Positions 9,201 to 64,000 of a stretch of 64,000 nucleotides of DNA are shown here, one piece after another. The stretch covers positions 30,738-94,737 of the forward strand of contig JAOAHX010000007.1 of assembly GCA_026415035.1 (NCBI GenBank), in the 5' to 3' direction. Numbering within the stretch: position 1 is the stretch's first letter; each line of letters opens with the position of its first letter. Source of the DNA: Thermodesulfobacteriota bacterium. Its GTDB lineage: Bacteria > Desulfobacterota > BSN033 > UBA1163. The notes under the pieces were generated by a model, which was not told the DNA's origin, did no database searches, and saw only the letters and a list, made by a program, of their open reading frames with translations. The position numbers and the translations under genes were made by a program.

Positions 9201-10532
9201 GAAGAGAGCAGGGCCCTCGTCGAGGACCGCTACCTTCGGCGACAGGAAGGGGAGGAGGTCCCTCCGCAGTACGAAATTAAGGCGATTCGAAAGGACGGGA
9301 CGATTCGGCATGTGGAGATCAGCGCCAATCTCATGAGGGATTCGAAGGGGGCGGTCCAGACCATCGCCTTCGTCAAGGACGTGACCGAAAAGAAGAAGAT
9401 GGAGGAACAGCTCCTCCAGGCGGAAAAGCTCCGGGCCCTGGGAGAGATGGCGAGCGGCGTGGCCCACGATTTCAACAATGCCCTGGCCTCCATCCTCGGA
9501 AACACCCAGCTTCTCCTTTATACCGTCAAGGACGAGGAGGTTCGGGAGACGTTGAAGACGATCGAGAAGGTGGCCAAGGACAGCGCCCAGACCGTCAAAA
9601 GGCTTCAGGAGTTCACCCGTAGGAAGGCCCGGGAGGAGCTCTTCAAAGTGGACCTCAACCCCGTCGTCCGGGACGTCATCGAGATCACACGACCGAGGTG
9701 GAAGGACGAGGCCCAAAGGAGAGGGATACCGATCGACGTGCGGTTCCATCCCGAAGAGGTCCCCACCGTCTCCGGCCATGCCTCGGAAATGCGCGAGGTC
9801 CTCACCAACCTGATCCTCAATGCCATCGAGGCGATGCCCGAGGGAGGTAGGATTGAGATTCGGACCTATCAGAAGGCCACTCGGGTTTGCCTCGAGATCA
9901 CCGATACGGGGATCGGCATGACCGAGGAGGTGAAGAAGAGGATTTTCGAGCCCTTCTTTACGACGAAGCCTTTCACCAATTCAGGCCTCGGGCTGAGCAT
10001 GTCCTACGGGATCATCAAGCGGTTTGGAGGCGAGATCGAGGTCGAGAGCCAGGTCGGTTCGGGGACGACCTTTAGGATCCTCCTTCCGGTTTCGGAGGAA
10101 GGGATCGAGGAGAGGGCCTCCGACCCCGTTCCCCGGGAGATGCCTTCTGCCCGCATCTTGGTCATCGACGACGAAGAACCGGTCAGAAATGTCCTCTCCA
10201 AAATCCTCTCCCAATTCCACCACCGGGTGGTGACCGCACAGAGCGGTGAGGAGGGGGTTCGAATTTTCGGGGAGGATCGATTCGACATGGTCTTGACCGA
10301 CCTGGGAATGCCCGGTCTTTCCGGCTGGGAGGTCTGCCGCCGGATTAAAGGGGTGGACCCTTCCGTCCCCGTGGGAATGATCACGGGATGGGGACTCGAA
10401 ATCGAAGAGGAAAAGAGAAAGGAGTCCGGCCTCGATTTCATCCTCACCAAGCCTTTCGAGATCAAACAGGTGTTTCAGGTGGTCTCCATGGCCTTGAGAA
10501 AGAAGGGCCCCAATCTTCGTTCCTCCCCTTGA
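6240..10532 (+). CDS. Multi-sensor hybrid histidine kinase with receiver domain
   Basis: This is a membrane-bound hybrid kinase of 1430 residues. Domain order: TM at about 11-30; extracytoplasmic Cache-like sensor at 35-275; TM at 280-299; HAMP at 298-350; PAS (360-480); GAF (505-660); PAS with a Cys pair, CEGC (665-785); GAF (795-950); PAS (950-1070); HisKA with the His in GVAHDFNN; HATPase with DTGIGM, FEPFFTTKP and GLGLSM; and a C-terminal receiver with VIDDEE, acceptor Asp in TDLGMPG, and LTKPF. The ATG at 6240 overlaps the preceding stop as ATGA; the GTG at 6183 lies inside the HTH gene and is rejected. No separate output regulator adjoins; the coupled HTH protein is the closest candidate partner. 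Confidence 0.9.
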   Translation: MKAFWKSITFKWMAFSILLATIPLAIAGTKIIQSYQRDLKHSIINLQKEKATRVVEKTRGYLEKTRDKLQSISKEAPLLRLGMSHYIKDYFKHFLLTEKDIIELALLDGDGFEQLRVSRQNGEERPTRKDLSMSPVFQRASKGEIYYGGFHYTPEGKPSLIIGIPLRGSQGEPVWVVKGKGHLEPLIDLLRQMRIGENGSTYVVDHEGYLIATNQDQRILLGPFVDWVLSGKEGSLEFEDQRGRRFLVSYEPIPELKWGVILHVPLEEAYRPLQEVTWTALKWIGIASAFAFLFSLFLTRRFTAPIKYLSREMSKVSGGNLEVQIRPSTNDEIGELTHNFNRMIFALRQSQESIQEAKKIYQAIFENSKDMIYITSKEGRFLDVNPAGVEMLGYGSKEELMGVEVREIYRDPEERGRFQERIAEKGFIKDFEVQLKRKDGTLLDCLITATVRRGQDGRIIGYEGTIKDITDRKRMEEELFRRTRELETLYELSNLVNESLNLEQMMPLALERVLSLTGFEMGTIYLLSDDGEWLELKYHHNYPRHLAETVRRLKVGEGVAGAAVQRKEVVICPIEEYPSARILPSLIQEKVKMLVGIPLISKGNVIGGFCLTSRKAHLFGEREVRLLQSVGNQIGMALEHAHLFTSVSKAKAEWEATFDSVTDIISIKDRQFRVLRGNRAFFNRYRMKPEDVVGRKCYEVLYHRDLPCEGCQVNETFKTHRPSFREYWSELLKGVFENFTFPVFDESGEIVAAIDMMREVTEKKRLEKEKEVIHQVSRTLALSLDIREVFKAVHKELKEVLGSDRMVVTLFDEDGERFRIFARDGENETDGLQEGKAYPLEGTPLQKVAETGFPVLVSCTVENEDGYCQPLAKEGVGSILVYPLESQGRIFGTLTFGARDVNHFSERHLTILQQLAPGLSISVQNSLLLEAIKGSEEKYRRVVEGALDGVLLVGEDYRIRFVNGRLAEILGYTVTELMGMDFRRLLDEESRALVEDRYLRRQEGEEVPPQYEIKAIRKDGTIRHVEISANLMRDSKGAVQTIAFVKDVTEKKKMEEQLLQAEKLRALGEMASGVAHDFNNALASILGNTQLLLYTVKDEEVRETLKTIEKVAKDSAQTVKRLQEFTRRKAREELFKVDLNPVVRDVIEITRPRWKDEAQRRGIPIDVRFHPEEVPTVSGHASEMREVLTNLILNAIEAMPEGGRIEIRTYQKATRVCLEITDTGIGMTEEVKKRIFEPFFTTKPFTNSGLGLSMSYGIIKRFGGEIEVESQVGSGTTFRILLPVSEEGIEERASDPVPREMPSARILVIDDEEPVRNVLSKILSQFHHRVVTAQSGEEGVRIFGEDRFDMVLTDLGMPGLSGWEVCRRIKGVDPSVPVGMITGWGLEIEEEKRKESGLDFILTKPFEIKQVFQVVSMALRKKGPNLRSSP

Positions 10533-13634: not shown

Positions 13635-14381
13635 ATGCCCCTGCTCGAAGTCTCGAATCTCGGCAAGGAGTTCGATGGACTGAAGGCCCTCGACGGGGTC
13701 AGTTTTTCAGCCGAACCCGGAGAGATCCTCGGCCTCATCGGACCCAACGGCGCGGGGAAGACGACCCTTTTCAATATCATCACCGGGATCTTTCCCCCCA
13801 CAGCGGGAGAGATATTCTTCCAGGGAAAGGCCATCCACACCCTCAAGACCCACGAGATCAGTCGGCTTGGAATCAGCCGGACCTTTCAGATCGTCCGGCC
13901 TTTTCAGAATCTCGATGTGGAGACCAATATCCTGATCGCCCTCGGGCACGCCTCCTATCCCTCCCTGAGAAGGTCCTTGGGACTGTGCCGGACTCCGGAT
14001 CATCTTCGGGAGGTCCAGAGGTTGATCGATCGAACCGGCTTAGGGCCATTCGCCGGTCAGTTGGCGAAAAACCTCCCCCTCGGGATTAAGAAACGACTGG
14101 AGATCGCCCGGGCCCTGGCCCTGAAGCCCAGGCTGCTCCTTCTGGACGAGCCCTCCGGGGGGCTTCGTTTCGAAGAGTCGGTTCAATTGATGGGGCTGAT
14201 CCGACAGATCCGGGAGGAGGGGATCGGGGTGTTGCTCATCGAACATAACATGCAGGTGATCATGGATCTCTGCAAGAGGATCGTGGTGCTCGATCATGGG
14301 ACGAAGATTGCAGAAGGCTCTCCGGAGGAGATCCGTTCGAATCCGCTGGTGATTCAGGCCTATTTAGGAAAGGAAGCCTGA
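13635..14381 (+). CDS. livG: Branched-chain amino acid-type ABC transporter, ATP-binding protein
   Basis: LivG-type ATPase of 248 residues. Walker A is GPNGAGKTT, the Walker B region is LLLLDEPSGGL, and the switch histidine is in LLIEHNM. The signature loop is unusual: the stretch before Walker B reads NLPLGIKKRLEIARAL, where LSxGxxxR is typical, so the family LPxGxQRRLEIARAL form is only partly kept. The ATG at 13635 has a GGTGAG Shine-Dalgarno five bases upstream; a GTG six bases earlier overlaps the livM stop and is less likely. Confidence 0.9.
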   Translation: MPLLEVSNLGKEFDGLKALDGVSFSAEPGEILGLIGPNGAGKTTLFNIITGIFPPTAGEIFFQGKAIHTLKTHEISRLGISRTFQIVRPFQNLDVETNILIALGHASYPSLRRSLGLCRTPDHLREVQRLIDRTGLGPFAGQLAKNLPLGIKKRLEIARALALKPRLLLLDEPSGGLRFEESVQLMGLIRQIREEGIGVLLIEHNMQVIMDLCKRIVVLDHGTKIAEGSPEEIRSNPLVIQAYLGKEA

Positions 14382-14382
14382 G

Positions 14383-15090
14383 ATGCTCGAGGTGCGTCAG
14401 ATCGAGGTGGCCTATGGCGAGTTCTTAGCTCTCAAAGGGGTGAGCTTTACGGTGAGGGAGGGTGAACTGGTCACCATCATTGGAGCCAATGGAGCGGGAA
14501 AGAGTACGATCCTTCGGACGGTCATGGGTCTGGAGAGGTGCCGAAAAGGGGCCATCCTCTTTCAGGGAGAGGAGATCACCGGGACTCCTTCCCATGTCCG
14601 GGCGCGGCTGGGCATCAGCATGGTCCCGGAGGGGAGGAAATCCTTTCCGGACCTCACCGTGGTCGAAAATCTGCTCATGGGCGGTTATATTGAGAAGGAC
14701 CGGAAGAAGCTCCAAAACCGGATGGAAGAAGCTTTCCAGCTCTTTCCGGTGCTCCGGGAGAGACAGAATCAGGTGAGCAAGACCCTGAGCGGAGGGGAAC
14801 AACAGATGCTGGCCATCGCCCGGGCCCTCATGTCGAAACCCAGGGTCATTTTGATGGACGAGGTCTCCTTGGGGTTGATGCCGATCTACGTGGAGGAAAC
14901 CTTTAGGGTGATCCGGGACCTTCATCGTCAGGGCGTGACGATCCTTCTTGTGGAGCAGAACGCCCGAAAGGCCCTTTCCGTGGCAGACCGGGGTTATGTG
15001 CTCGAAACGGGAGAGGTGATCTTGAGCGATACGAGCGAGGTCCTCGCCAACCACCCCCTGGTGAAGAAGGCCTATCTCGGGGGAGCATGA
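14383..15090 (+). CDS. livF: Branched-chain amino acid-type ABC transporter, ATP-binding protein
   Basis: LivF-type ATPase of 235 residues. Walker A is GANGAGKST, the signature is LSGGEQQMLAIARAL, Walker B is VILMDEVSLGL, and the switch histidine position reads LLVEQNA (Gln), as is normal for LivF. It begins one base after the livG stop codon. The gap to hutU is only 26 bases without a terminator, so hutU and hutH are probably on the same transcript. Confidence 0.92.
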   Translation: MLEVRQIEVAYGEFLALKGVSFTVREGELVTIIGANGAGKSTILRTVMGLERCRKGAILFQGEEITGTPSHVRARLGISMVPEGRKSFPDLTVVENLLMGGYIEKDRKKLQNRMEEAFQLFPVLRERQNQVSKTLSGGEQQMLAIARALMSKPRVILMDEVSLGLMPIYVEETFRVIRDLHRQGVTILLVEQNARKALSVADRGYVLETGEVILSDTSEVLANHPLVKKAYLGGA

Positions 15091-15116
15091 GGGGACCTCT
15101 CTTTTCGAGGTGAATT

Positions 15117-16829
15117 ATGGAAAAGACGAAAGTTGGGGTGAAAGAGAGAGAAGAGACGATGGTCGGCGTTCAGGTGGGGATTCGGGCACCGAGGGGAACC
15201 CAATTGACCTGCAAGAGCTGGCAGACCGAAGCGGCCTTGAGGATGCTGATGAACAACCTCGATCCGGAGGTGGCCGAAAAGCCGGCCGAGCTGATCGTCT
15301 ACGGAGGCTCGGGCAAGGCCGCACGAAACTGGGAGGCCTACCACCTGCTGGTCAAATGCCTCATGGATCTGGAGAAGGACGAGACCTTGCTTGTGCAGTC
15401 GGGCAAACCGGTGGGAATCTTCAAAACCCATGAGGACGCGCCCAGGGTCCTCATCTCCAATGCGATGCTCGTCCCCCACTGGGCCAACTGGGAGAAATTT
15501 AGGGAACTCGAAGAGCTCGGGCTCACGATGTATGGTCAGATGACTGCCGGCAGCTGGATCTACATCGGCACCCAGGGGATCCTTCAAGGGACCTATGAGA
15601 CCTTTGCCGCTGCGGCAAAAAAGCACTTCGGCGGGTCCCTCAGGGGTAGGCTCGTCCTCTCCGGAGGGCTGGGGGGGATGGGCGGGGCCCAGCCCCTTGC
15701 GGCCACCATGAACGAGGGCGTTTTCATCGGCGTGGAGGTGGATCCGAATCGGATCAAACGCCGCCTCGAGACGGGCTACCTCGATGTGATGACGGACCGG
15801 CTTGAGGATGCGCTCATCATGGCCCTGAGCGCAAAGGAGAAGGGGATGGCGAAGTCGATCGGCCTCGTCGGAAATACGGCCGAGGGGCTTCCCGAAATCG
15901 TGAAGAGGGGGATCATCCCAGACCTCGTCACCGACCAGACCTCCGCCCACGATGCGCTCAATGGGTATGTGCCGGCGGGCTTGGGCCTCGATCAGGCTCT
16001 CGAACTCCGTAAAAAGGATCCCCAGGAGTACATCCGGAGGTCGATGGAGTCGATGGCAATTCATGTCAGGGCCATGCTCGACTTCCAAAAGAGAGGGGCC
16101 ATCGTCTTCGACTACGGCAACAATCTCCGGGCCCAGGCCTATCAGGCAGGGGTGAAGGAGGCCTTCGATTATCCGGGGTTTGTCCCGGCCTTCATCCGGC
16201 CCCTCTTCTGCGAAGGCAAAGGCCCCTTCCGATGGGCCGCCCTTTCAGGAGACCCTGAAGATATCTACAAGACGGACGAGGCGATCCTCAGGACCTTTCC
16301 CGACGATGTCTCCTTGACCAGGTGGATCCGTCTGGCAAGGGAGAAGGTCAAATTTCAGGGCCTGCCTGCACGGATCTGCTGGTTGGGCTATGGTCAGAGG
16401 GCGCGCATCGGCAAGGTCTTCAACGATATGGTGGCCAGGGGGGAGTTGAAAGCCCCTCTGGTGATCGGAAGGGACCATCTTGATAGCGGCTCGGTGGCCT
16501 CGCCCTATCGCGAGACCGAAGGGATGAAGGACGGAAGCGATGCCATCGCGGACTGGCCCATCCTCAACGCCCTTCTCAACGTGGCTGCCGGTGCCACTTG
16601 GGTCTCGGTCCATCATGGCGGAGGGGTGGGGATCGGTTATTCCATCCATGCGGGCATGGTCGTGGTCGTGGATGGGACGAAGGAGGCGGAGCGGAGGCTG
16701 GAACGGGTCCTCACGACCGATCCCGGTACAGGCGTGATGCGGCATGCCGATGCCGGCTACGAGGAGGCGATCGAGACGGCCAAAGAGAAGGGGATCAAGA
16801 TTCCAGGCATAACCCTCTATCAGAAATGA
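15117..16829 (+). CDS. hutU: Urocanate hydratase
   Basis: HutU is the NAD-dependent urocanase that converts urocanate to 4-imidazolone-5-propanoate, the second step of histidine breakdown. The 570-residue protein has the family [11 protein letters not shown] near residue 62, the NAD-binding [17 protein letters not shown] at 182, and a C-terminal catalytic region with [14 protein letters not shown] and [20 protein letters not shown]. Length is slightly above the usual 550-560 because of a short N-terminal extension; an internal ATG at codon 15 is an alternative start. The stop overlaps the hutH start (ATGA). Confidence 0.95.
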
Positions 16830-18385
16830 AGACCCAGAGAGGAAACGAAAAAAGGACAAAGACCATCGTACTGGACGGTCACTCTCTCAGCCTGGAAGAG
16901 GTTCGGGAGGTGGCCGAGGGAAGGGCGATCGTCGAGATTTCTCCCGAGGCCGTTGAACGGGTCCGGCGATGCCGGGAATTTGTCGAGCGGGCCCTGGCGC
17001 AGGGCGAGAAGATGTACGGGGTGACGACGGGGTTCGGCCTCCTTGCCGATCAGGTGATCGATCACTCCCAGATCGAGGCCCTTCAGAGAAACCTCATCCG
17101 GAGCCACTGCGTGGGAGTGGGGCCCTATTTCGACGAAGAGACGACGCGGGCCATCATGCTGCTTCGGGCCAACGTCCTCGCCAAGGGCCATTCGGGGGTT
17201 CGGCCGGAGGTCGTCCAGACCCTCCTTGCGATGATCAACCTCGGCGTCCATCCCTTGCTCCCGGAACAGGGGTCGGTGGGCGCAAGCGGAGATCTTGCCC
17301 CCCTGGCCCATTTGGCCTCCGTGCTCATGGGAGAGGGCGAGGCCCTCTACCATGGGAAACGGATGTCGGGGAGGAAGGCCATGGAGAAGGCCGGGATTCC
17401 CATCCTCACGCTGAAGGCCAAAGAGGGCCTCTCCCTGATCAACGGCACGCAGGTGATGACCGCGGTGGCCATCCTCTCCCTGTTGCGCGCGGAGCGGCTC
17501 TGCAAGATGGCCGATATCATCGGGGCCTGCACCCTGGATGCCCTGAAAGGCAGTTTCCGGGCCTTTGACCTCGATATCGACCGGGTCAGGCCCTATCCCG
17601 GCTCCTTTGCCGTCTCGAGGAACTTCAAGAAGCTGGGCCAGAGGGACGAGATCGCCGAGTCGCATAAGTCCTGTTCCAAGATCCAGGACGCCTACTCCCT
17701 GAGGTGCATCCCCCAGGTCCACGGCGCGGTGAGGGATGCCTTGGCCTTCGTCCGGAAGACCCTCGAGATCGAGGTCAATGCCTCGACCGACAACCCCCTC
17801 ATCTTCCCTGATAAGGGCAAGATCCTCAACTGCGGAAACTTTCACGGAGAGCCCGTGGCCTTCGCCATGGACCTTTTGGGAATCGTCGTCTCCGAGCTGG
17901 GAAGCATCTCGGAGCGGAGGATCGAGAAGCTGATCAATCCCGCCCTCTCCGGGCTTCCCGCCTTCCTCACCACCGAGGGAGGGCTCCACTCGGGGCTGAT
18001 GATGGTGCAGGTCAGCGCAGCCTCCCTCGCCTCGGAAAATAAAGTGCTCGCCCATCCGGCAAGCGTCGATACCATTCCCACCTCCGCGGACAAAGAGGAT
18101 CATGTCTCCATGGGGACGATCGCCGCAAGAAAAGGCCGTGAGATCGTCCGAAACGTCGAACACATCCTGGCGATGGAGCTCCTCTGCGCCACCCAGGGAT
18201 TGGAGTTTCACCTCCCCCTTCGGCCGGGATTGGGGATCCACGAGGCCTACCGTGCCGTCCGGGAGAGGGTCCCGGCCATCAAAGGGGATCGACGGTTCAG
18301 CAAGGACATTCAGGTGATCTACCAGATGATCGCCTCGGGAGAGCTGCTTCAACGGGTCGAGAAGGTCGTGGGGGAATTAGATTAA
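16826..18385 (+). CDS. hutH: Histidine ammonia-lyase
   Basis: HutH deaminates histidine to urocanate. The 519-residue protein carries the Ala-Ser-Gly triplet (residues 153-155, in [15 protein letters not shown]) that cyclises to the MIO electrophile, the active-site tyrosine loop YGVTTGFG at about 64-71, and the C-terminal [12 protein letters not shown] signature. I chose the ATG at 16826 because it overlaps the hutU stop as ATGA; longer in-frame reading upstream lies inside hutU. The gene ends in a 9-base convergent overlap with the methyltransferase gene on the other strand. Confidence 0.95.
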
Positions 18386-19054
18386 GACCTCGAAGAAGAG
18401 ACTGGACTCGTCCACCTCTTGGAGGGTGATCTCCCTCTGGGGGCCGGGAAGCAGGGCGAGGAAATCCGCAGGCCCATAGGTCGTCGCCCTGAACCCATCG
18501 CGGCAGACGATGACCCCGTCACGGGTGAGGCCCCAGTCGATCTCACCGATCAGCCCCGCCTCCGCCTGTCGGACAAACCACTCCAGTCGGTCTTTCCAGA
18601 ACTTTTCGGAATAGCTCGAGAAGAGGACCCTTCCTCCGACCCGGGTGATCCGGAGGCTCTCCCGCAACAGCTCCTTCGGATCGACCTTGAAGGCCGAGAT
18701 CCCGTTCTGGATACAGACGACCCGGTCGAACGATCGATCCGCAAAGCCAAGGCAGGCCGCATCCATCTGAAGGAGGAAGCAGTGGGAAAGTTGGGCGAGA
18801 CGCTCCCTGGCGAGCCTCAGACTGGCCCAAGAGGTGTCGATGCCGACGACCTTTCTGGCCTTCTGCGCCAGCCTTTCGAGGACCCGGCCGTAACCGCATC
18901 CCAGCTCCAGGACGAGATGGGAGGAGTCGATCTGGCTCAGGACGTGCTCGATTTCGGCCTCCAGATATTGCTTCACCCTTGGAGGAGCGATGTCGTAGCA
19001 TTGTCTTAATCGTTCGCCCGAAAGTTGGGTGGTGTAGTACCGATCCGGAGGCAA
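18377..19054 (-). CDS. Class I SAM-dependent methyltransferase
   Basis: The product (225 residues) has a Rossmann methyltransferase core: motif I VLELGCGYGRVLERL, the acidic end of beta 2 in VVGIDTS, and a post-I region with MDAACLGFADRSFDRVVC. The substrate is unknown. The start is a TTG preceded by an AGGAGGG Shine-Dalgarno at five bases, the best site in the area. It lies 49 bases after dctM on the same strand and may be cotranscribed with the TRAP genes. It overlaps the end of hutH by 9 bases tail to tail. Confidence 0.82.
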   Translation of the reverse strand: MPPDRYYTTQLSGERLRQCYDIAPPRVKQYLEAEIEHVLSQIDSSHLVLELGCGYGRVLERLAQKARKVVGIDTSWASLRLARERLAQLSHCFLLQMDAACLGFADRSFDRVVCIQNGISAFKVDPKELLRESLRITRVGGRVLFSSYSEKFWKDRLEWFVRQAEAGLIGEIDWGLTRDGVIVCRDGFRATTYGPADFLALLPGPQREITLQEVDESSLFFEVLI

Positions 19055-36684: not shown

Positions 36685-36700
36685 TGGCATAACAGTTGCT
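36685..36700 (+). promoter_or_regulatory. Sigma-54 promoter upstream of fliL
   Basis: TGGCATAACAGTTGCT is a near-perfect -24/-12 element. Predicted transcription starts near 36711, which rules out the in-frame ATG at 36696 and supports the fliL ATG at 36738. Confidence 0.8.
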
Positions 36701-57408: not shown

Positions 57409-57858
57409 TTGCAGCTTTTTACGGACCGTTTCGGAATGATCGAAATCGCAGAGGATCAGATCCTCCATCTTCCCGATGGGATGATCGGTTTCCCTGACGA
57501 AAAGCGATTTGTCCTTTTAAAACACAGCGAGGAATCCCCCTTCCTCTGGTTCCAGTCGGTCGATAACGGCCACCTGGCCTTCGTCGTGACCGACCCCTTC
57601 TGGTTTCAACCCGACTACGATTTTGAGATCGATCCTCAAGAGGCCGAGGTTCTCGAGCTCAAAGGCCATCCCGAGGAGGTCCAGACCTTGGTGGTGGTCA
57701 ATCTCCATCTCTCCAATGGCCCGCCCGTCATCACGGCCAACCTCCTTGGACCGATCGTCATCAATCTTCGGAAACGATTGGCGAAACAGCTCGTCCTCTA
57801 CCGGAGCGCCTACTCTCACCGACACCCGATTCCGCTTCAAAGTAATCAAAAGCCCTGA
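57409..57858 (+). CDS. fliW: Flagellar assembly factor FliW
   Basis: FliW binds CsrA, and also flagellin, and thereby ties flagellin translation to secretion. The 149-residue protein has TDRFGMIEIAEDQILHLPDG, GFPDEKRFVLLKHSEESPF and the C-terminal VITANLLGPIVINLRKRLAK, all family features. The start is a TTG with AAAGGAG nine bases upstream; the next ATG is ten codons inside and would cut the first strand. Its last codons form the left arm of the terminator that follows. Confidence 0.93.
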   Translation: MQLFTDRFGMIEIAEDQILHLPDGMIGFPDEKRFVLLKHSEESPFLWFQSVDNGHLAFVVTDPFWFQPDYDFEIDPQEAEVLELKGHPEEVQTLVVVNLHLSNGPPVITANLLGPIVINLRKRLAKQLVLYRSAYSHRHPIPLQSNQKP

Positions 57859-57954: not shown

Positions 57955-58263
57955 TTAAAGCAGATCGAGAAGAGACTCTTTTATAATCTTCTCGGCAAGG
58001 GCGTCCCTTTCCACATGGTAGCGGCCTTCCTCGATCTGTTTTTTCAGCTCCGCGACCCGCTCCGCCCGTATGTCAGGGGTGGATCGGAGGACCTCGTAAA
58101 CCTTCTGCATCTCTTTCGAGCGGGCCGAGAACTCGACGCGATCTCCGGACAAGGGCTTGGCCTCCATTTCCCCGGCCTTGGAAGGCCTCTCCGGTGGAGG
58201 GGTGGATTGGGACTGAGGGACGTTCTGCAAAGGGTTCTTCTGATGAAGGTCTGATATTTTCAT
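57955..58263 (-). CDS. flgM: Anti-sigma-28 factor FlgM
   Basis: FlgM holds FliA inactive until it is exported through the finished hook. The 102-residue protein has a disordered Pro/Ser-rich N-terminal half and the conserved FliA-binding C-terminal half (DRVEFSARSKEMQKVYEVLR, then VAELKKQIEEGRYHVERDAL and EKIIKESLLDLL). It follows a small unknown gene in an operon with a perfect FliA-type promoter, so FliA drives its own inhibitor, as in other bacteria. Confidence 0.93.
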   Translation of the reverse strand: MKISDLHQKNPLQNVPQSQSTPPPERPSKAGEMEAKPLSGDRVEFSARSKEMQKVYEVLRSTPDIRAERVAELKKQIEEGRYHVERDALAEKIIKESLLDLL

Positions 58264-58280: not shown

Positions 58281-58700
58281 TCAGATGAGATGTTCGTGGA
58301 TGAACGATTTCGTCACCTCATACAGTTTATCCTTGAGGAATTTGTTCTCCTCGGGCGAGAGATACTCTTGGTATCCCCCATTGTTCTCAGAAAGGATTCT
58401 GAAAACCATCCCTTGGCCATCTTCTGAGGTGACATCAAGGGGCTTTCCGTACTCCTGGCTCAACCGGTTCAGGATGGCCTTCCCCGTTTCATTTCGTGGC
58501 GACCCGTTGACCAGCTGGGAGATGATCTCTTCGGCGATCTTGTCGATGATCAACATCTTTTTGCTCTCCTTGGAGATGGTCACCTCGTCCCGTTGCCCCG
58601 CCTGCTTGGCGAGTTTGTCCTTAGAAATCCGGGACTTCGCCGAAAGCTGCTGGGTATAAGCCCTCAAGACGTGCTGGACATGGTAGTCGGTGAGGATCAT
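58281..58700 (-). CDS. Unknown protein co-transcribed with flgM
   Basis: A 139-residue, charged, mostly helical product. The N-terminal part (TDYHVQHVLRAYTQQLSAKS) includes a pattern seen in small proteins next to flgM in sulfate-reducer-like genomes; I cannot name the family. No membrane segment or enzyme motif is visible. The sigma-28 -10 element at 58721-58728 puts transcription start near 58714, so the ATGs at 58769 and 58718 are excluded and the ATG at 58700 is the best start, with 58715 just possible. It is expressed with FlgM in the late class and may act in flagellar regulation. Confidence 0.72.
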   Translation of the reverse strand: MILTDYHVQHVLRAYTQQLSAKSRISKDKLAKQAGQRDEVTISKESKKMLIIDKIAEEIISQLVNGSPRNETGKAILNRLSQEYGKPLDVTSEDGQGMVFRILSENNGGYQEYLSPEENKFLKDKLYEVTKSFIHEHLI

Positions 58701-58720
58701 GGCCTTCTCGTTCATCATAC

Positions 58721-58747
58721 TTATCGGCTCCCCCCTGAAAAACTTTA
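58721..58747 (-). promoter_or_regulatory. Sigma-28 (FliA) promoter for the flgM operon
   Basis: On the minus strand TAAAGTTT and GCCGATAA are separated by exactly 11 bases, a perfect match to the FliA consensus. Confidence 0.88.
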
Positions 58748-58870
58748 ACCTTTTTTCCAAGAGCGGCAAAAATTTCCTTTCTCACACTAAAGAAATGGAT
58801 GTTCTTACCTTATTCAGAAATTTAAAAAGCATAACTATTTGTAATTTTAAGCATTTACATTGCAGTCATC

Positions 58871-58886
58871 TGGCATGAACCTTGCC
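58871..58886 (+). promoter_or_regulatory. Sigma-54 promoter for the AT-rich modification genes
   Basis: TGGCATGAACCTTGCC matches the -24/-12 consensus with correct spacing. Transcription is predicted to start near 58897, giving an AT-rich leader of about 110 bases before the ATG at 59009. Confidence 0.75.
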
Positions 58887-59008
58887 TAAATAGATAAGTG
58901 AACTCGATCGGTTTTTACTTAGGGAAAGTTGTAAAAAGAGGCTTTTAAAGAAATAAAGGAATGAATCAATAAGTCGATAAGTTAAAATGAATTAGGAATA
59001 GGAGGACC

Positions 59009-62000
59009 ATGGGAAAAACATTGAAGATTTTAGGAAGAGGAAAGGTTCCCCAACGCACCATTTTTAATGAAAGGTTTGTGGCAGAATGCTGTGAAACCTT
59101 CCATTTCCATATTAGGAATATCCGGCATGAATTTAAATGGGAAGATTTTTTAAAGTTAACACAAGCCTTTAAGGAAATTGATGAAACTTATTCCAGACAT
59201 GGGAGACCGAAGTCTCATCACCATCTTGAGTTGGGAAGGACGCTATTAAATCCTAATCATAGCTCCCAGGAACTTTTGGTTGAACTCTGTGAAAATATTT
59301 ACAAAAAATATCCGACAGGATGGGATTCTTATTTTCATGAAGAAGACTCATTCATCCATCTCCATTTTCGTGATCTTCGGATCGAGATGGGTAATGCCGA
59401 ATTCCTTGAGTTTGCGAAAATCATAAGCCAAGCCTATAGAGAATTGGTGGCTTTGAAAGCTAAAACTCTATCAGAAGTGTTTGATCTGCTCGATCAACAA
59501 AAAATCATTTATGCCGTGCTTCGAAACTGGGAAAACCTTCCAGAAAAGGTTGAAGTTGGGCCACACAGCGATCTGGATTTAATCATTCACCCAGACCATG
59601 TTGAAAGGTTTTGCGAACTCGTAAATGCACAATCAACTACCCAACTCCCCTATAGAGTCCAGCGACGGGTTATGATAATGGGCCCAGAAGGAGAGCAATC
59701 TTACATTCTCGTAGACCTTCGTCAACCTGGAGATGGCTACTTCCCAGATATTCTTGCCTACCAGATGCTCAATCGGAGGGTTCGCTTCAGAAACTTTTGG
59801 GTGTTACATCCAGAAGATCATTTGGTTGGGCTTGCTTACCATATCCTTTTCCACAAAGGATATGTGGGGGAGGGATATCTCGATCGATTGAAATGGTTAT
59901 CCAGTCATTTGGCCAAATGGCCCTGGCGCTCCATTCAAGGTCCCTCTCTTATGTCCTATCTAAAAAAAATATTGTCTGATAACAACGTTCATTATGTTTG
60001 TCCGGTCGATCTAACAGTTAGACCGACTTTACCTATGCTTTATCCAATTGAGTATGTAGTAAATCAGGGCTACCGGCGGGATGACAATGGTCAGCCTGTC
60101 TTTTCACGGGTGTATAAAGTGTTTTCTGAAAGGGGAGAGCCCTTTCTGGTGAAACAAGCCAGTGGCTCATTCGCAAAACATGAATTTAGGATTTTGAGCA
60201 AGTTGAACTCGGAATATTTCCCAAAGGCGTGGGGGTACGAGGAATATGAGGGGTACTCCATCTTCCAAGAAGAATATATTGAGGGGACCCCCTTGTCTGA
60301 AGCTCATCCGATGATATCGGCATGGGACTTCACAGAGGCAAAGGAATTTGTAGGAGGATGCATCAAAATACTCAAGGCCTTAACTTCGAGTGAGATCGAG
60401 CATAGGAATATTTGTGCAGACCACCTTTTGATATCCGGCAAAAGGCCGGTGTTGATAAGTTTTGGGCGGGCTAGGCCTAAAGAGAGACCCCTTGAAGGGC
60501 TAAATGGAAAAGAGAAAACTTCAGAGGACTGTTCTCCAAAAAACGATCTCTGCGATCCTTATGATATGGGATTGTTGTTACGGAATACTCTTGAACCTAT
60601 TTTCCCTCAATTCTCTCCATTGATCGAGACGTTACTGAAAAGTAGAAAAGAGAAGCCTGTGAACTGGGATACAGTGGATATTCTTTTCACCACCTTGGAG
60701 GAACCGACATTTTCATCATCTGAGGAAAAATTTTTAGCCTATTGCAATGCGGGACGATACCAAAAAGCCGAAGAGATTCTTCCCACTTTGGGAACATTTC
60801 AAGATGAGTCAATACGTTTTTGGATCTATTACCTCAAATTCATCAATCGGGAAGAGTCCATCGACTTTGCCCTTTCGATTCCCCAGTATATCAAGGAAAA
60901 TAAGGGTCTCCTATGTCGATTAATTCGAGAGTGTTTTGAAACAAAAAAGATAAACCAGGGAGCGACCCTAGTTAAACAATTTCTATCCACCTCCATCGCC
61001 CTTCACCCAGATTGGACCTTCTCGATCTTTATTGATTTGGGTGATCATTTTCTTGATGACCATTTTCATGAGTTATCCAAGGTCCTCCCTCCGAATATTT
61101 TAAAGGCCCTTTACGACGAGAGAGGGAGGAACCGGGAATGGGTCCGCCTTTGGATTTCCAATCTATGCAAATATGGTAATCTGTCCGATCTACAAATGGC
61201 GTTAGGCGAAATCAATATGGATCCAAAATCCCTGCCCCCCTCTTGCCTCTCCGAAATTGCTCAAAGGTTTTTTTCCGAGGGTGAGGAGGCAAATGCATTG
61301 CTTTATGCAAGTCGTGCCCTTGATGAGGATCCTTATTTTGCAGAGTGTGCGAAGATATTAGCCACTCTCCATGAAAAGCATGGCAACATTCTTGAAGCGG
61401 CTAAGTGGTGGAGACATTATCTGACGTTAAACCACGATGAAGATTCCTCAATAAAAAACTACATCGGATCGAGCGCTAAGTTTGAAGGTGACCATAAAGA
61501 GGAGGATCACCCGTGGATTCTGATCCCCAAGTTGACCGAAGATATCTATTCCAAAAATCTGGCGATGATGAAACGGCAGCTCGAGGAAATTTTACATACA
61601 GAGTTAGGTAATCATCCGATTCTTAAAAAGGAATACCAAGAAATTGTCGAAAGGATGAGTGTTGGCGAATCAGATCCTAATAAAAAGGCCCTCCTAAATT
61701 TAGAAAAAGTATTGCTGGAGTTTCCCAATAATGCACTCGTTCATAATGATTTAGGAGTGCTCTATTATAGGACAGGAGACCTTCAGAGGGCTATGAAATA
61801 TTTTGAGTTGGCCATAACCCTTGACCCCTGGAATTATGATTTTAAAAAGAACCTGGCCGACCTTTCTCTCGAGCTTCATCATTATCCCCAAGCCATAAAG
61901 TTATATCAAGAAATTTTGGCGAAAAGCTCCGAACAAACCGATGATTATTTAAAAGTCGGGTATTGTTACCTCCAGTTAGGTTCTCTGTCCAAAGCGTCTT

Positions 62001-62107
62001 ATTATTTCAAAAAAGTATTAGAACTTGATCCAGAAAATAAGATAGCTAAAGATTATCTTGCTCTCACGGGGAATACCACAAGAAACGGATGTTCCAATCA
62101 AGTTTAA
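59009..62107 (+). CDS. Large multidomain protein: NTase-like, degenerate kinase-like and TPR domains
   Basis: A 1032-residue soluble protein. Residues 31-52 and 115-137 repeat one motif (FHFHIRNIRHEF and IHLHFRDLRIEM). Residues 165-300 resemble an uncharacterised nucleotidyltransferase domain with VLRNWENLPEK and GPHSDLDLII (Asp188, Asp190). Residues 365-560 look like a protein-kinase fold: VKQ (Lys382), Glu392, then EHRNICADHLL and ISFGRA where active kinases have HRD and DFG, so catalysis is doubtful. From about 575 to the end are helical repeats, clearly TPR after residue 900 (LGVLYYRTGDLQRAMKYFEL). AGGAGG lies three bases before the ATG. Codon use is AT-rich, unlike the flagellar genes. 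A role in flagellin or surface-glycan modification is inferred from its sigma-54 promoter and neighbours. Confidence 0.75.
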   Translation: MGKTLKILGRGKVPQRTIFNERFVAECCETFHFHIRNIRHEFKWEDFLKLTQAFKEIDETYSRHGRPKSHHHLELGRTLLNPNHSSQELLVELCENIYKKYPTGWDSYFHEEDSFIHLHFRDLRIEMGNAEFLEFAKIISQAYRELVALKAKTLSEVFDLLDQQKIIYAVLRNWENLPEKVEVGPHSDLDLIIHPDHVERFCELVNAQSTTQLPYRVQRRVMIMGPEGEQSYILVDLRQPGDGYFPDILAYQMLNRRVRFRNFWVLHPEDHLVGLAYHILFHKGYVGEGYLDRLKWLSSHLAKWPWRSIQGPSLMSYLKKILSDNNVHYVCPVDLTVRPTLPMLYPIEYVVNQGYRRDDNGQPVFSRVYKVFSERGEPFLVKQASGSFAKHEFRILSKLNSEYFPKAWGYEEYEGYSIFQEEYIEGTPLSEAHPMISAWDFTEAKEFVGGCIKILKALTSSEIEHRNICADHLLISGKRPVLISFGRARPKERPLEGLNGKEKTSEDCSPKNDLCDPYDMGLLLRNTLEPIFPQFSPLIETLLKSRKEKPVNWDTVDILFTTLEEPTFSSSEEKFLAYCNAGRYQKAEEILPTLGTFQDESIRFWIYYLKFINREESIDFALSIPQYIKENKGLLCRLIRECFETKKINQGATLVKQFLSTSIALHPDWTFSIFIDLGDHFLDDHFHELSKVLPPNILKALYDERGRNREWVRLWISNLCKYGNLSDLQMALGEINMDPKSLPPSCLSEIAQRFFSEGEEANALLYASRALDEDPYFAECAKILATLHEKHGNILEAAKWWRHYLTLNHDEDSSIKNYIGSSAKFEGDHKEEDHPWILIPKLTEDIYSKNLAMMKRQLEEILHTELGNHPILKKEYQEIVERMSVGESDPNKKALLNLEKVLLEFPNNALVHNDLGVLYYRTGDLQRAMKYFELAITLDPWNYDFKKNLADLSLELHHYPQAIKLYQEILAKSSEQTDDYLKVGYCYLQLGSLSKASYYFKKVLELDPENKIAKDYLALTGNTTRNGCSNQV

Positions 62108-62258
62108 GGGGGAAGGCGACCTATGACTGTTCGGTTGAAAATAAATAAATGGAATTTCCTCATCGATTGAGCCGGAGGGCTGCCAACCGATGCATGCCCC
62201 GAGGCCGCTGGAAAAATGTTCTCAACATGATAACCATTTTGGAACGAAAGGATTTCCA

Positions 62259-64000
62259 ATGAAATTAAGTGAATTTCAATACGATTCGTTCAATCGCATC
62301 TATCTTCCAGATCGTTCTTCAAATCTCCCCAGCGAGGGGAAAAAGGAAGAGTCTCCTCAAGAAAAGATCGGAAAAAAGCAACCTACAAGTCATGATCCCC
62401 TCGATACAAATAATGAGACGTCCCTATTATTTGACGAACGAATCTATCTTATTGATGCAATAAAAGAATTATTGCCTTCCGGTGGAAAAGCGCTTGAGTT
62501 AGGGGCGAGCTCAGTGGGAATCAATCAAATTCTCTCAGGCTATTATGGGCAGATAGATGCCGTTGAAATAGATTTAGATCGAGCCAAAAATCTTAGCTTG
62601 CAAACGGAGAAAATGGGAAACATCAGAGTATTTGTTGGAGACATTTTCGATTTGGAATATCCCCATGAAGATTATCATTTGGTGATTTTATTAGGCGTAT
62701 TGAACCACCTTTTAAGTGATGGGGATGAAAATATTAAAGTCTCTCTATCCTCCTTTTTCAATAATATTTATCTCAGCCTAAAAAACGAAGGGATAATGTT
62801 AATTGCTTTAGACAATCCCTATGGCATGAAATTCCCCATTAACGGCCTCCAAGATCATCGACAAAAAATATTTTTAGACTGCAAAGGGTCTTCAGAAGAG
62901 GCTCCTTTGATATTTAGCCGAGATGGATTGGAGGCGGTCTTAAAATTAGCAGGGTTTAAAAATACTCAATATTACCATCTATTTCCAAATTGGAAAGCCC
63001 CAAAATTAATTATAAGAGAAGATGATGAATTTTATGGATTAAAACCAACAGGACTTTTAAGGGGTAATTTTGAAAATTACCCAATGGACAAGAGGCCGTA
63101 TGATTATCCCGATGCGCTTAGAATGGAATCAGCCATTAAAACTCGGCTCCTATTTCAATTGTCGAATTCTTTTCTAATCCTTTGCTCAAAAAATGAGCAG
63201 AAAAATTTGAGAACAAGGTATATGATTAGGAAATATTGGGATTATGCCAAAAATAATCCCGCGCTGCACCATGTTATCGACGTCGTAAAAAAACCAGACG
63301 CAGAGGCGCAAGTAGAAAGAAAATTTCTGTATCATTCGAAGACGGAGATGACCTTAAAAAAATTAAATATCAAAATGATTTCGTCAAAATGGATCAAGGG
63401 AGAATCCCTATTGAACGAAGCCTATCTTTCCATCCTCCGGAATGATTCCCTGCAATCCTTTCGCAATTTGCTAAGAGAACTATTGAACAATTTGATCATC
63501 AATTATGGGACTGGAAAAAAAGATCGAGAGGGATATCCTGAGGTAGATGGGGAGGCATTTGATTACACTTTTTGGAATATCAAAAGGGATGAGCACGGCC
63601 TTTGGCATTTTATCGATCCCAAGTGGACTTACTTGGAACCATTGCCAGCAGATTACATTTTATATAGGTCAATTATTGGTATTTATAACGAGATCAAGCC
63701 ACTTATCGCCTATAAAGATCACCAAACGTATCTATTAGATACACTAAAAGATATATTTCCAGAGTTTAATATGGATCGCCTCATGAATCATTTTCAAAGG
63801 GAACAAGAGAAAGAGGAGGAGTTAAAGAATAGTGTTTCTCATTGGTCGGAAGAAGAAACGAGCCACCTAAAGAGTGAGCCCGCGAGGAGTCAAATCGAAG
63901 TTATCTCAAATTCAGAGAGGGCGAAATCGGGACAAGTCAATTATCAAAGAAACACTAATTCTTTTTTGGCACCTGAGTCTTATCAGAAGCAGGCCTTTTT
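62259..64000 (+). CDS. SAM methyltransferase joined to a kinase-like domain (3' end outside window)
   Basis: An open frame of about 580 codons runs off the window. Residues 60-240 form a class I methyltransferase: motif I ALELGASSVGINQI, acidic motif II AVEIDLDRAK, and VGDIFDL before LVILLGVLNHLL. Residues 330-475 look like a small kinase fold: FDYTFWNIKRDEHGLWHFID has an Asp and Asn spaced as in a catalytic loop, then an Asp (FIDPKW) in the metal-binding position. The arrangement recalls WbdD-type methyltransferase-kinases that cap O-antigen chains. AAAGGA precedes the ATG at 62259; an in-frame ATG at 62190 is an alternative. The last visible 70 residues are a polar linker. Confidence 0.72.
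   Translation, partial: MKLSEFQYDSFNRIYLPDRSSNLPSEGKKEESPQEKIGKKQPTSHDPLDTNNETSLLFDERIYLIDAIKELLPSGGKALELGASSVGINQILSGYYGQIDAVEIDLDRAKNLSLQTEKMGNIRVFVGDIFDLEYPHEDYHLVILLGVLNHLLSDGDENIKVSLSSFFNNIYLSLKNEGIMLIALDNPYGMKFPINGLQDHRQKIFLDCKGSSEEAPLIFSRDGLEAVLKLAGFKNTQYYHLFPNWKAPKLIIREDDEFYGLKPTGLLRGNFENYPMDKRPYDYPDALRMESAIKTRLLFQLSNSFLILCSKNEQKNLRTRYMIRKYWDYAKNNPALHHVIDVVKKPDAEAQVERKFLYHSKTEMTLKKLNIKMISSKWIKGESLLNEAYLSILRNDSLQSFRNLLRELLNNLIINYGTGKKDREGYPEVDGEAFDYTFWNIKRDEHGLWHFIDPKWTYLEPLPADYILYRSIIGIYNEIKPLIAYKDHQTYLLDTLKDIFPEFNMDRLMNHFQREQEKEEELKNSVSHWSEEETSHLKSEPARSQIEVISNSERAKSGQVNYQRNTNSFLAPESYQKQAF

Follow-up and report, generated by a model that had tools for sequence, protein, structure and literature searches.

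What is encoded by the adenine-thymine (AT)-rich DNA at the right end of this stretch of a Thermodesulfobacteriota contig, and how is it related to the flagellar genes around it? We analysed a 64,000-nucleotide window (C7:30738-94737, C7 being the contig; genome G000, 3.06 Mb in 81 contigs), in which a preliminary description had proposed an unnamed flagellin-modification system made of two large open reading frames (ORFs), here ORF1 and ORF2. We consider it likely, though well short of certain, that the slot between flgK-flgL-fliW/flgM and fliC-flaG-fliD-fliS is a variable flagellin-glycosylation locus, and that ORF2 is a mosaic multi-enzyme in which an O-antigen-terminator-type methyltransferase-kinase module has been set on WbsX, tetratricopeptide repeat (TPR) and two glycosyltransferase family 2 (GT2) domains. 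The coordinates of all features are given in Table 1.

A variable slot beside the flagellin gene

We extended the contig rightward (L003 = C7:85000-104999; L003 position = window position - 54262) and read the genes on both sides of the slot. From left to right, the order is flgK, flgL, fliW, flgM, a DVU0524-family gene, a divergent intergenic region, ORF1, ORF2 and ORF3, followed in the extension by fliC, flaG, fliD, fliS, an FlgN/FliT-like gene and a response regulator. fliC begins 115 bp past ORF3, and thus directly adjoins glycosyltransferases, namely ORF3 and the C-terminal half of ORF2. The flagellar and glycan genes expected downstream were therefore present, as the remainder of a giant glycosyltransferase, a GT2-TPR protein, fliC, flaG, fliD and fliS; the sugar-nucleotide genes also expected there were missing from the slot of G000 itself.

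Comparison with relatives revealed a fixed position with variable content: G000, G001, G002 and G007 share the flanks and differ within them. The gene order at the left border (flgM, DVU0524-family gene) was the same in G001, G002 and G007. In the congeners G007 and G002, the slot consists of the DVU0524-family gene, variable genes, a GT2-TPR gene and fliC; the variable genes include a MerR regulator, NAD-epimerases, a nucleotidyltransferase, HAD-SIS, a GHMP kinase, a DegT aminotransferase and giant glycosyltransferase genes, together with dehydrogenase E1-like and radical S-adenosylmethionine (SAM) genes, those outside the Pfam scan being named by eye from their sequence. In G001 the slot ends lie on different contigs, and a methyltransferase-like gene follows the DVU0524-family gene. 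Behind a sigma-54-like site, G002 and G007, and in part G001, fill this slot with genes for sugar nucleotides and glycosyltransferases; the reading as a variable flagellin-glycosylation locus, and with it the proposal of a flagellin-modification system, thereby gained support. The G007 (L019) and G002 (L104:11013-17501) slots also carry DJ-1/PfpI-like, HAD, paired dehydrogenase E1-like, B12-radical SAM and cupin genes (most of them identified by eye), a set that suggests an unusual flagellin decoration in those genomes.

Similar arrangements were found in other families. G140 and G170 encode WbsX megaproteins of 3616 and 1942 aa within ~16 kb of flagellin genes, with FlbT-like and FlaF-like genes (named by eye) also nearby, and G140 holds an analogous slot of glycosyltransferase megaenzymes. 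In G140 the 3616-aa WbsX megaprotein and a 1674-aa glycosyltransferase protein (L130:2850-13700 and 13697-18721) precede the flbT/flaF-like genes and fliC, and its WbsX domain was the closest found to that of ORF2 (70%). The literature searched contained no link between WbsX and flagellin.

The preliminary description had called the slot sigma-54-driven. An exact match to the -24/-12 promoter consensus, TGGCATGAACCTTGC, was confirmed at 58871, and the driving of transcription is read from this site. It lies 138 bp 5' of the ORF1 start codon, a plausible distance for a -24/-12 promoter, and by chance the intergenic region of 240 bp would contain ~0.0015 such sites. With at most one mismatch, TGGCAY-N5-TTGC occurred 12 times in the window against 3.4 expected, a count reached by 0/100 shuffles. 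In G001, G002, G007 and G140, too, the slot opens with a sigma-54-like site in front of its first gene. Because like sites precede other flagellar genes of the window, sigma-54 control of the slot is plausible from the sequence. Four more TGGCAY-N5-TTGC sites lie at 793 (minus strand), 32914, 36685 and 49656, and those at 36685 and 49656 directly precede FliL-like and FlgF/G-like genes (named by eye), no gene being assigned to the one at 793. A small MerR-family regulator gene stands right behind the sigma-54-like site in G007 (L049:5588-5953), G002 (L104:4482-4865) and G140 (L130:667-1008); the slot of G000 has no such gene, and ORF1 occupies its place.

The joints of the AT-rich stretch

Maximum-likelihood (ML) segmentation confirmed the abrupt fall in guanine-cytosine (GC) content. 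The left change point lies at window position ~58737 (near-optimal range 58677-58767), where GC drops from 0.56 to 0.40 (twice the log-likelihood difference, 2dLL, 223), placing the fall near 58.7-59.0 kb. Alignment with congeners showed host-like sequence up to ~58790, which confines the left joint to the stretch from that point to the start of ORF1; the sigma-54-like site falls inside this zone. The right change point lies at C7:94921 (L003 9922, near-optimal ~9902-9947), 184 bases beyond the window end and within ORF2 at codon ~665, where GC rises from 0.38 to 0.57 (2dLL 191) and GC at third codon positions from about 0.3-0.45 to about 0.6-0.8. The AT-rich stretch is therefore real, but an island of whole genes with both edges intergenic was dropped, since the AT-rich DNA stops inside ORF2.

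In ORF2, the right joint sits within the WbsX domain (PF14307, residues 630-964, 475 bits), in its conserved N-terminal portion. Among 22 WbsX domains, two 15-residue windows that rank among the better conserved begin immediately ahead of the joint, at residues 630 and 640; the most conserved window lies elsewhere, at residue 939. The GC-rich half of ORF2 shares 58-59% identity with slot proteins of congeners, and the front part of ORF1 is missing from 40 relatives; the GC step and the absence from congeners support the proposed horizontal origin for the front part of the slot. The incoming DNA would already have coded for the first ~35 WbsX residues, a sign of homologous exchange between a pair of WbsX genes. 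Since the genus gene order is retained on both flanks, illegitimate fusion or a chimeric assembly is less probable. These results suggest that the front module of ORF2 was swapped by homologous exchange at a conserved WbsX block, and that the front ~5.2-5.4 kb of the slot was probably replaced by AT-rich DNA in this way.

The methyltransferase-kinase module and ORF1

The methyltransferase-kinase-like fusion of the preliminary description was found at its start of 62190, but the window cuts ORF2, and the full 1795 aa adds a WbsX, two GT2 and two TPR segments, in the order methyltransferase-like, kinase-like, WbsX, TPR, GT2, GT2, TPR. An AlphaFold model of the front module (predicted local distance difference test, pLDDT, 63) showed a Rossmann methyltransferase fold matching class I methyltransferases in the PDB, with residues 545-625 at low confidence. 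PDB sequence searches with fragments of ORF1 and ORF2 returned nothing useful.

Among the closest known counterparts is ORF6 of Klebsiella pneumoniae O7, a methyltransferase-kinase that phosphorylates and then methylates the chain end to give a methyl-phosphate cap, whose D441 is essential for kinase activity, whose Y28, Y66, G91, G93, E112 and Y158 lie at the SAM site, and whose kinase differs from WbdD in sequence and structure (PMC11231755). Like O7 ORF6, ORF2 has an N-terminal methyltransferase followed by a kinase, with two GT2 modules further toward the C-terminus, and its putative catalytic Asp lies in a D-x-x-x-x-N motif. The family likewise shows the SAM spacing of O7 ORF6, and its members mostly stand beside Wzm/Wzt. 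The spacing of SAM and kinase residues in relatives matches O7 ORF6 (for example, 26, 62, 89, 91, 110, 156 and 440 in L050). The kinase Asp, Asn and Asp were invariant in alignments A1, A3 and A4 (D458, N463 and D476 in ORF2), so that ORF2 has the Asp with downstream Asn and Asp of the O7-type kinase; D458 corresponds by motif and spacing to D441, compared as a published residue, not as a sequence. Unlike O7 ORF6, ORF2 stands beside fliC, has WbsX and TPR segments where O7 ORF6 has a coiled-coil ruler, and lacks four of the six SAM-contact positions. Its SAM site is degenerate, reading GASSVG for GxGxG with S107 and H173; ORF2 retains counterparts of G91 and E112 but none of Y28, Y66, G93 or Y158. 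Because it departs from the O7-type SAM contacts, we filed ORF2 as a relative of the family, not as a methyl-phosphate terminator. The degraded SAM site leads us to predict that ORF2 caps with phosphate, without the methyl group. The equivalents of Y28 and Y158 are also absent from a Methanoregulaceae member (L060:1000-2706; IDHL, like LNHL in ORF2), and the loss of SAM contacts may therefore have occurred more than once.

ORF2 also resembles WbdD of Escherichia coli O9a in the methyltransferase-kinase order and in the concept of phosphate-then-methyl capping (PMC3482155); unlike WbdD, it showed no coiled-coil ruler, no coiled-coil predictor having been run. The best 60 matches of profile A1 to PDB sequences were all methyltransferases and included no WbdD chain, and membership of WbdD proper was not supported by sequence.

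Relatives of the ORF2 methyltransferase-kinase segment were found at 25-33% identity, and profile A4 detected the family in 10/331 phylum genomes. Alignment A1 was too diverse for the GTDB pattern scan; A2, used in its place, gave five loci (Methanobacteriota, Actinomycetota and a deltaproteobacterium). Among these carriers and the five GTDB loci taken together, a Wzm-like permease and/or a Wzt-like ATPase neighboured the family in most cases (G143, G011, G187, G035 and L058-L061), and G053 and G333 hold it in glycosyltransferase clusters; the relatives thus mostly occur in polysaccharide loci dependent on ATP-binding cassette (ABC) transporters. No relatives of fliC, fliD, fliW, flgK or flgL were found in the O-antigen-type loci read. 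In three of the ten carriers, from two further bacterial families, the module adjoins fliC. In G299 (968 aa, with GT2) and its congener G408 (672 aa), a methyltransferase-kinase-TPR protein is divergent to fliC, with fliW, flgL and flgK beyond. In G301 the module is split into a methyltransferase and a kinase-glycosyltransferase protein, divergent beside fliC, fliD and fliS, and the two parts are overlapping genes (L154:3917-8379). The SAM motifs are kept in all three. Nearly all homologues of the ORF2 front half thus lie in flagellar or polysaccharide loci, as the preliminary description would require. On a 14-row tree the flagellin label must change two or more times, and G000 groups with Wzt-linked sequences, the branches of G000 and G301 being long.

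The reading of ORF1 as a 1032-residue protein with nucleotidyltransferase (NTase)-like, kinase-like and TPR parts was borne out for the ORF and for the TPRs; the NTase-like and kinase-like matches were weak and below cut-off. The NTase-like segment matched PF14907 (E 6e-4; 19.9 bits, under the 31.2 cut-off) and, at 43% over a short stretch, a protein in the polysaccharide locus of G262. The kinase-like domain also matched a MAD6 kinase segment (E 2.4e-9) and PD-T4-6 (E 5e-7). Its residues 465-485 read HRN, His and SFG in place of the HRD, Asn and DFG of an active protein kinase, and it is accordingly a predicted pseudokinase on its residue pattern. The TPR block shared 40% identity over 159-162 aa with a TPR block within the G007 flagellin-slot megaenzyme and 48% over 79 aa with the first TPR block of ORF2, which argues that ORF1 served flagellin modification before or after import. 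The N-terminus contains a duplicated motif whose self-alignment score was reached by 0/500 shuffles, with a marginal DUF6686 match; H-x-H-[FI]-R-[ND]-[IL]-R-x-E occurs twice there (59078-59400) and nowhere else among the fetched loci, a regular expression for it matching only this genome's own copies. The N-terminal 160 aa gave chance-level matches in 297 phylum genomes, and 395 phylum genomes yielded only short NTase-like matches to ORF1, in three. The gene pair was found nowhere else as a pair, because ORF1 has no full-length homologue.

Table 1. Features of the slot and its surroundings (window positions unless marked C7)
Feature	Position	Strand	Remark
fliW	57409-57858		
flgM	57955-58263	-	FlgM PF04316
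DVU0524-family FlgM-associated gene	58281..58769	-	NF041863 57.3 bits, cut-off 40; host-like left slot border
Zone of left edge of imported AT-rich DNA	58737..59009	.	ML change point and congener similarity
Sigma-54 -24/-12 promoter-like site	58871..58885	+	exact match
ORF1, 1032 aa	59009..62107	+	duplicated N-terminal motif, NTase-like, predicted pseudokinase, TPR
NTase-like domain of ORF1	59435..60058	+	HSDLDL at 59564, LVDL at 59708
Kinase-like domain of ORF1	60080..60478	+	PF00069 E 1.7e-4, below cut-off
C-terminal TPR block of ORF1	61622..62104	+	TPR likeness to flagellin-slot enzymes
ORF2, 1795 aa	62190 to C7:98314	+	window holds 62190..64000 only
Methyltransferase-like domain of ORF2	62436..63000	+	PF08241 21.5 bits, just above cut-off 21.2
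Kinase-like domain of ORF2	63270..63815	+	conserved D458, N463, D476
ORF3, 593 aa, GT2-TPR	C7:98311-100092		

Competing explanations and a proposed mechanism

Several observations weigh against a flagellin-glycosylation locus with an O7-type module. No sugar-nucleotide synthesis genes lie between the DVU0524-family gene and fliC in G000, although they are present in G002 and G007; such genes are common but not universal in flagellin-glycosylation islands, and the donors must here be supplied from elsewhere. The link between ORF2 and O7 ORF6 was drawn from residue spacing and architecture, not from a sequence comparison, and the kinase half of ORF2 was unrecognised by Pfam and among the listed PDB fold matches, which covered the methyltransferase half only. 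Two relatives (G053 and G333) showed no ABC transporter in the stretch read, and the context of G228 was not assigned. The domain calls in ORF1 depend mostly on matches below cut-off; no full-length relative of ORF1 was found in 40 relatives, the phylum samples, the GTDB pattern scan or plasmids, and a single-sequence AlphaFold model (pLDDT 35) was unusable and not used.

The strongest competitor, a minority possibility to be taken seriously, is that ORF1 and the N-terminal part of ORF2 are decaying relics and that flagellin is glycosylated by the GT2-TPR half and ORF3 alone. The degraded SAM site, the predicted pseudokinase and the long branch of the ORF2 N-terminal part agree with decay, as does the greater divergence of the N-terminal lid and methyltransferase than of the kinase when set against the identities among other members. 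That same comparison, however, leaves the kinase half the least diverged, with its Asp, Asn and Asp kept, and the reading frames are long and uninterrupted behind an intact sigma-54 site. A role in modifying surface polysaccharide (O-antigen, capsule or exopolysaccharide), with the position beside fliC an accident of insertion, is unlikely. Most methyltransferase-kinase relatives do lie in Wzm/Wzt polysaccharide clusters, and stand-alone WbsX proteins are also common away from flagellar loci, but the slot contains no Wzm/Wzt, Wzx/Wzy or sugar genes, ORF3 and the GC-rich half of ORF2 show synteny with fliC in congeners, the TPR type is common to other flagellin-slot glycosyltransferases, and two other families also have this module next to fliC.

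That the AT-rich stretch was wrongly joined on at conserved sequence, during assembly or binning, appears still more improbable. Despite an 81-contig assembly and a right joint in a conserved block that could invite mis-joins, there is no frame break where the ORF crosses the joint; two independent mis-joins would be required, since both flanks follow the genus order flgKL-fliW-flgM ... GT-fliC, and the ORF1 TPRs match those of a congener's flagellin-slot glycosyltransferase. A defence or toxin-like island built on a kinase and methyltransferase fusion was rejected as hardly credible: the weak PADLOC matches (ORF1 to PD-T4-6/MAD6-type kinases, ORF2 to mad2) span generic kinase and methyltransferase motifs only and score far less than true members do (for MAD6, 36 bits where the cut-off is 460), and the context is flagellar, with glycosyltransferases.

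Under the preferred flagellin-glycosylation reading, the TPR segments of ORF1, ORF2 and ORF3 would dock onto flagellin and onto one another, by analogy with Caulobacter FlmG, whose TPR binds flagellin (PMC7591256). In the cytoplasm, the WbsX and GT2 domains would assemble a short FliC-bound glycan, and the kinase-like domain of ORF2 would phosphorylate it as a cap or a branch point. The NTase-like domain of ORF1 may act on or next to the phosphate, and the kinase-like part of ORF1 may serve as a scaffold. The swimming filament may thus carry phosphate-capped sugars, as far as sequence can tell. Like flagellin-modifying FlmG, the putative flagellin-modifying enzymes here combine TPR and glycosyltransferase in one protein; FlmG pairs TPR with GT-B for pseudaminic acid, whereas here GT2 and WbsX domains occur with several TPR blocks. 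The flagellin glycan of Clostridioides difficile type A contains phospho-N-methylthreonine, and there and in Pseudomonas aeruginosa PAO1 (CD0241-CD0243, PA1088-PA1090) genes for phosphate-containing, methyltransferase-linked glycans stand beside a flagellin glycosyltransferase and flagellin (PMC4441256); those are separate small genes, unlike the giant multi-domain enzymes here. Flagellin-glycosylation islands such as those of Geobacillus (PMC5109656) and Aeromonas (PMC7874193) share the variable gene content at the flagellin locus; here, by contrast, no maf or nonulosonic-acid genes were recognised, the fused enzymes are very large, and a recombination joint lies inside a domain.

We offer more tentatively, as a conjecture that leans toward doubtful, that O-antigen terminator kinase modules have been repeatedly recruited to flagellin loci for phosphate or methyl-phosphate capping, and that here a WbsX crossover, a dead methyltransferase and an ORF1 that extends or edits the phosphate would yield a new modification. 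One enzyme module ties O-antigen chain termination to flagellin glycosylation, which are usually studied apart, in at least three families and at least two tree placements. The residue pattern predicts phosphate without methyl here, and methyl-phosphate where the SAM site is intact (G299, G408 and G301). The GC step falls within an ORF and coincides with a conserved stretch of a glycosyltransferase domain; this suggests module swapping by homologous recombination, a route by which such loci may diversify.

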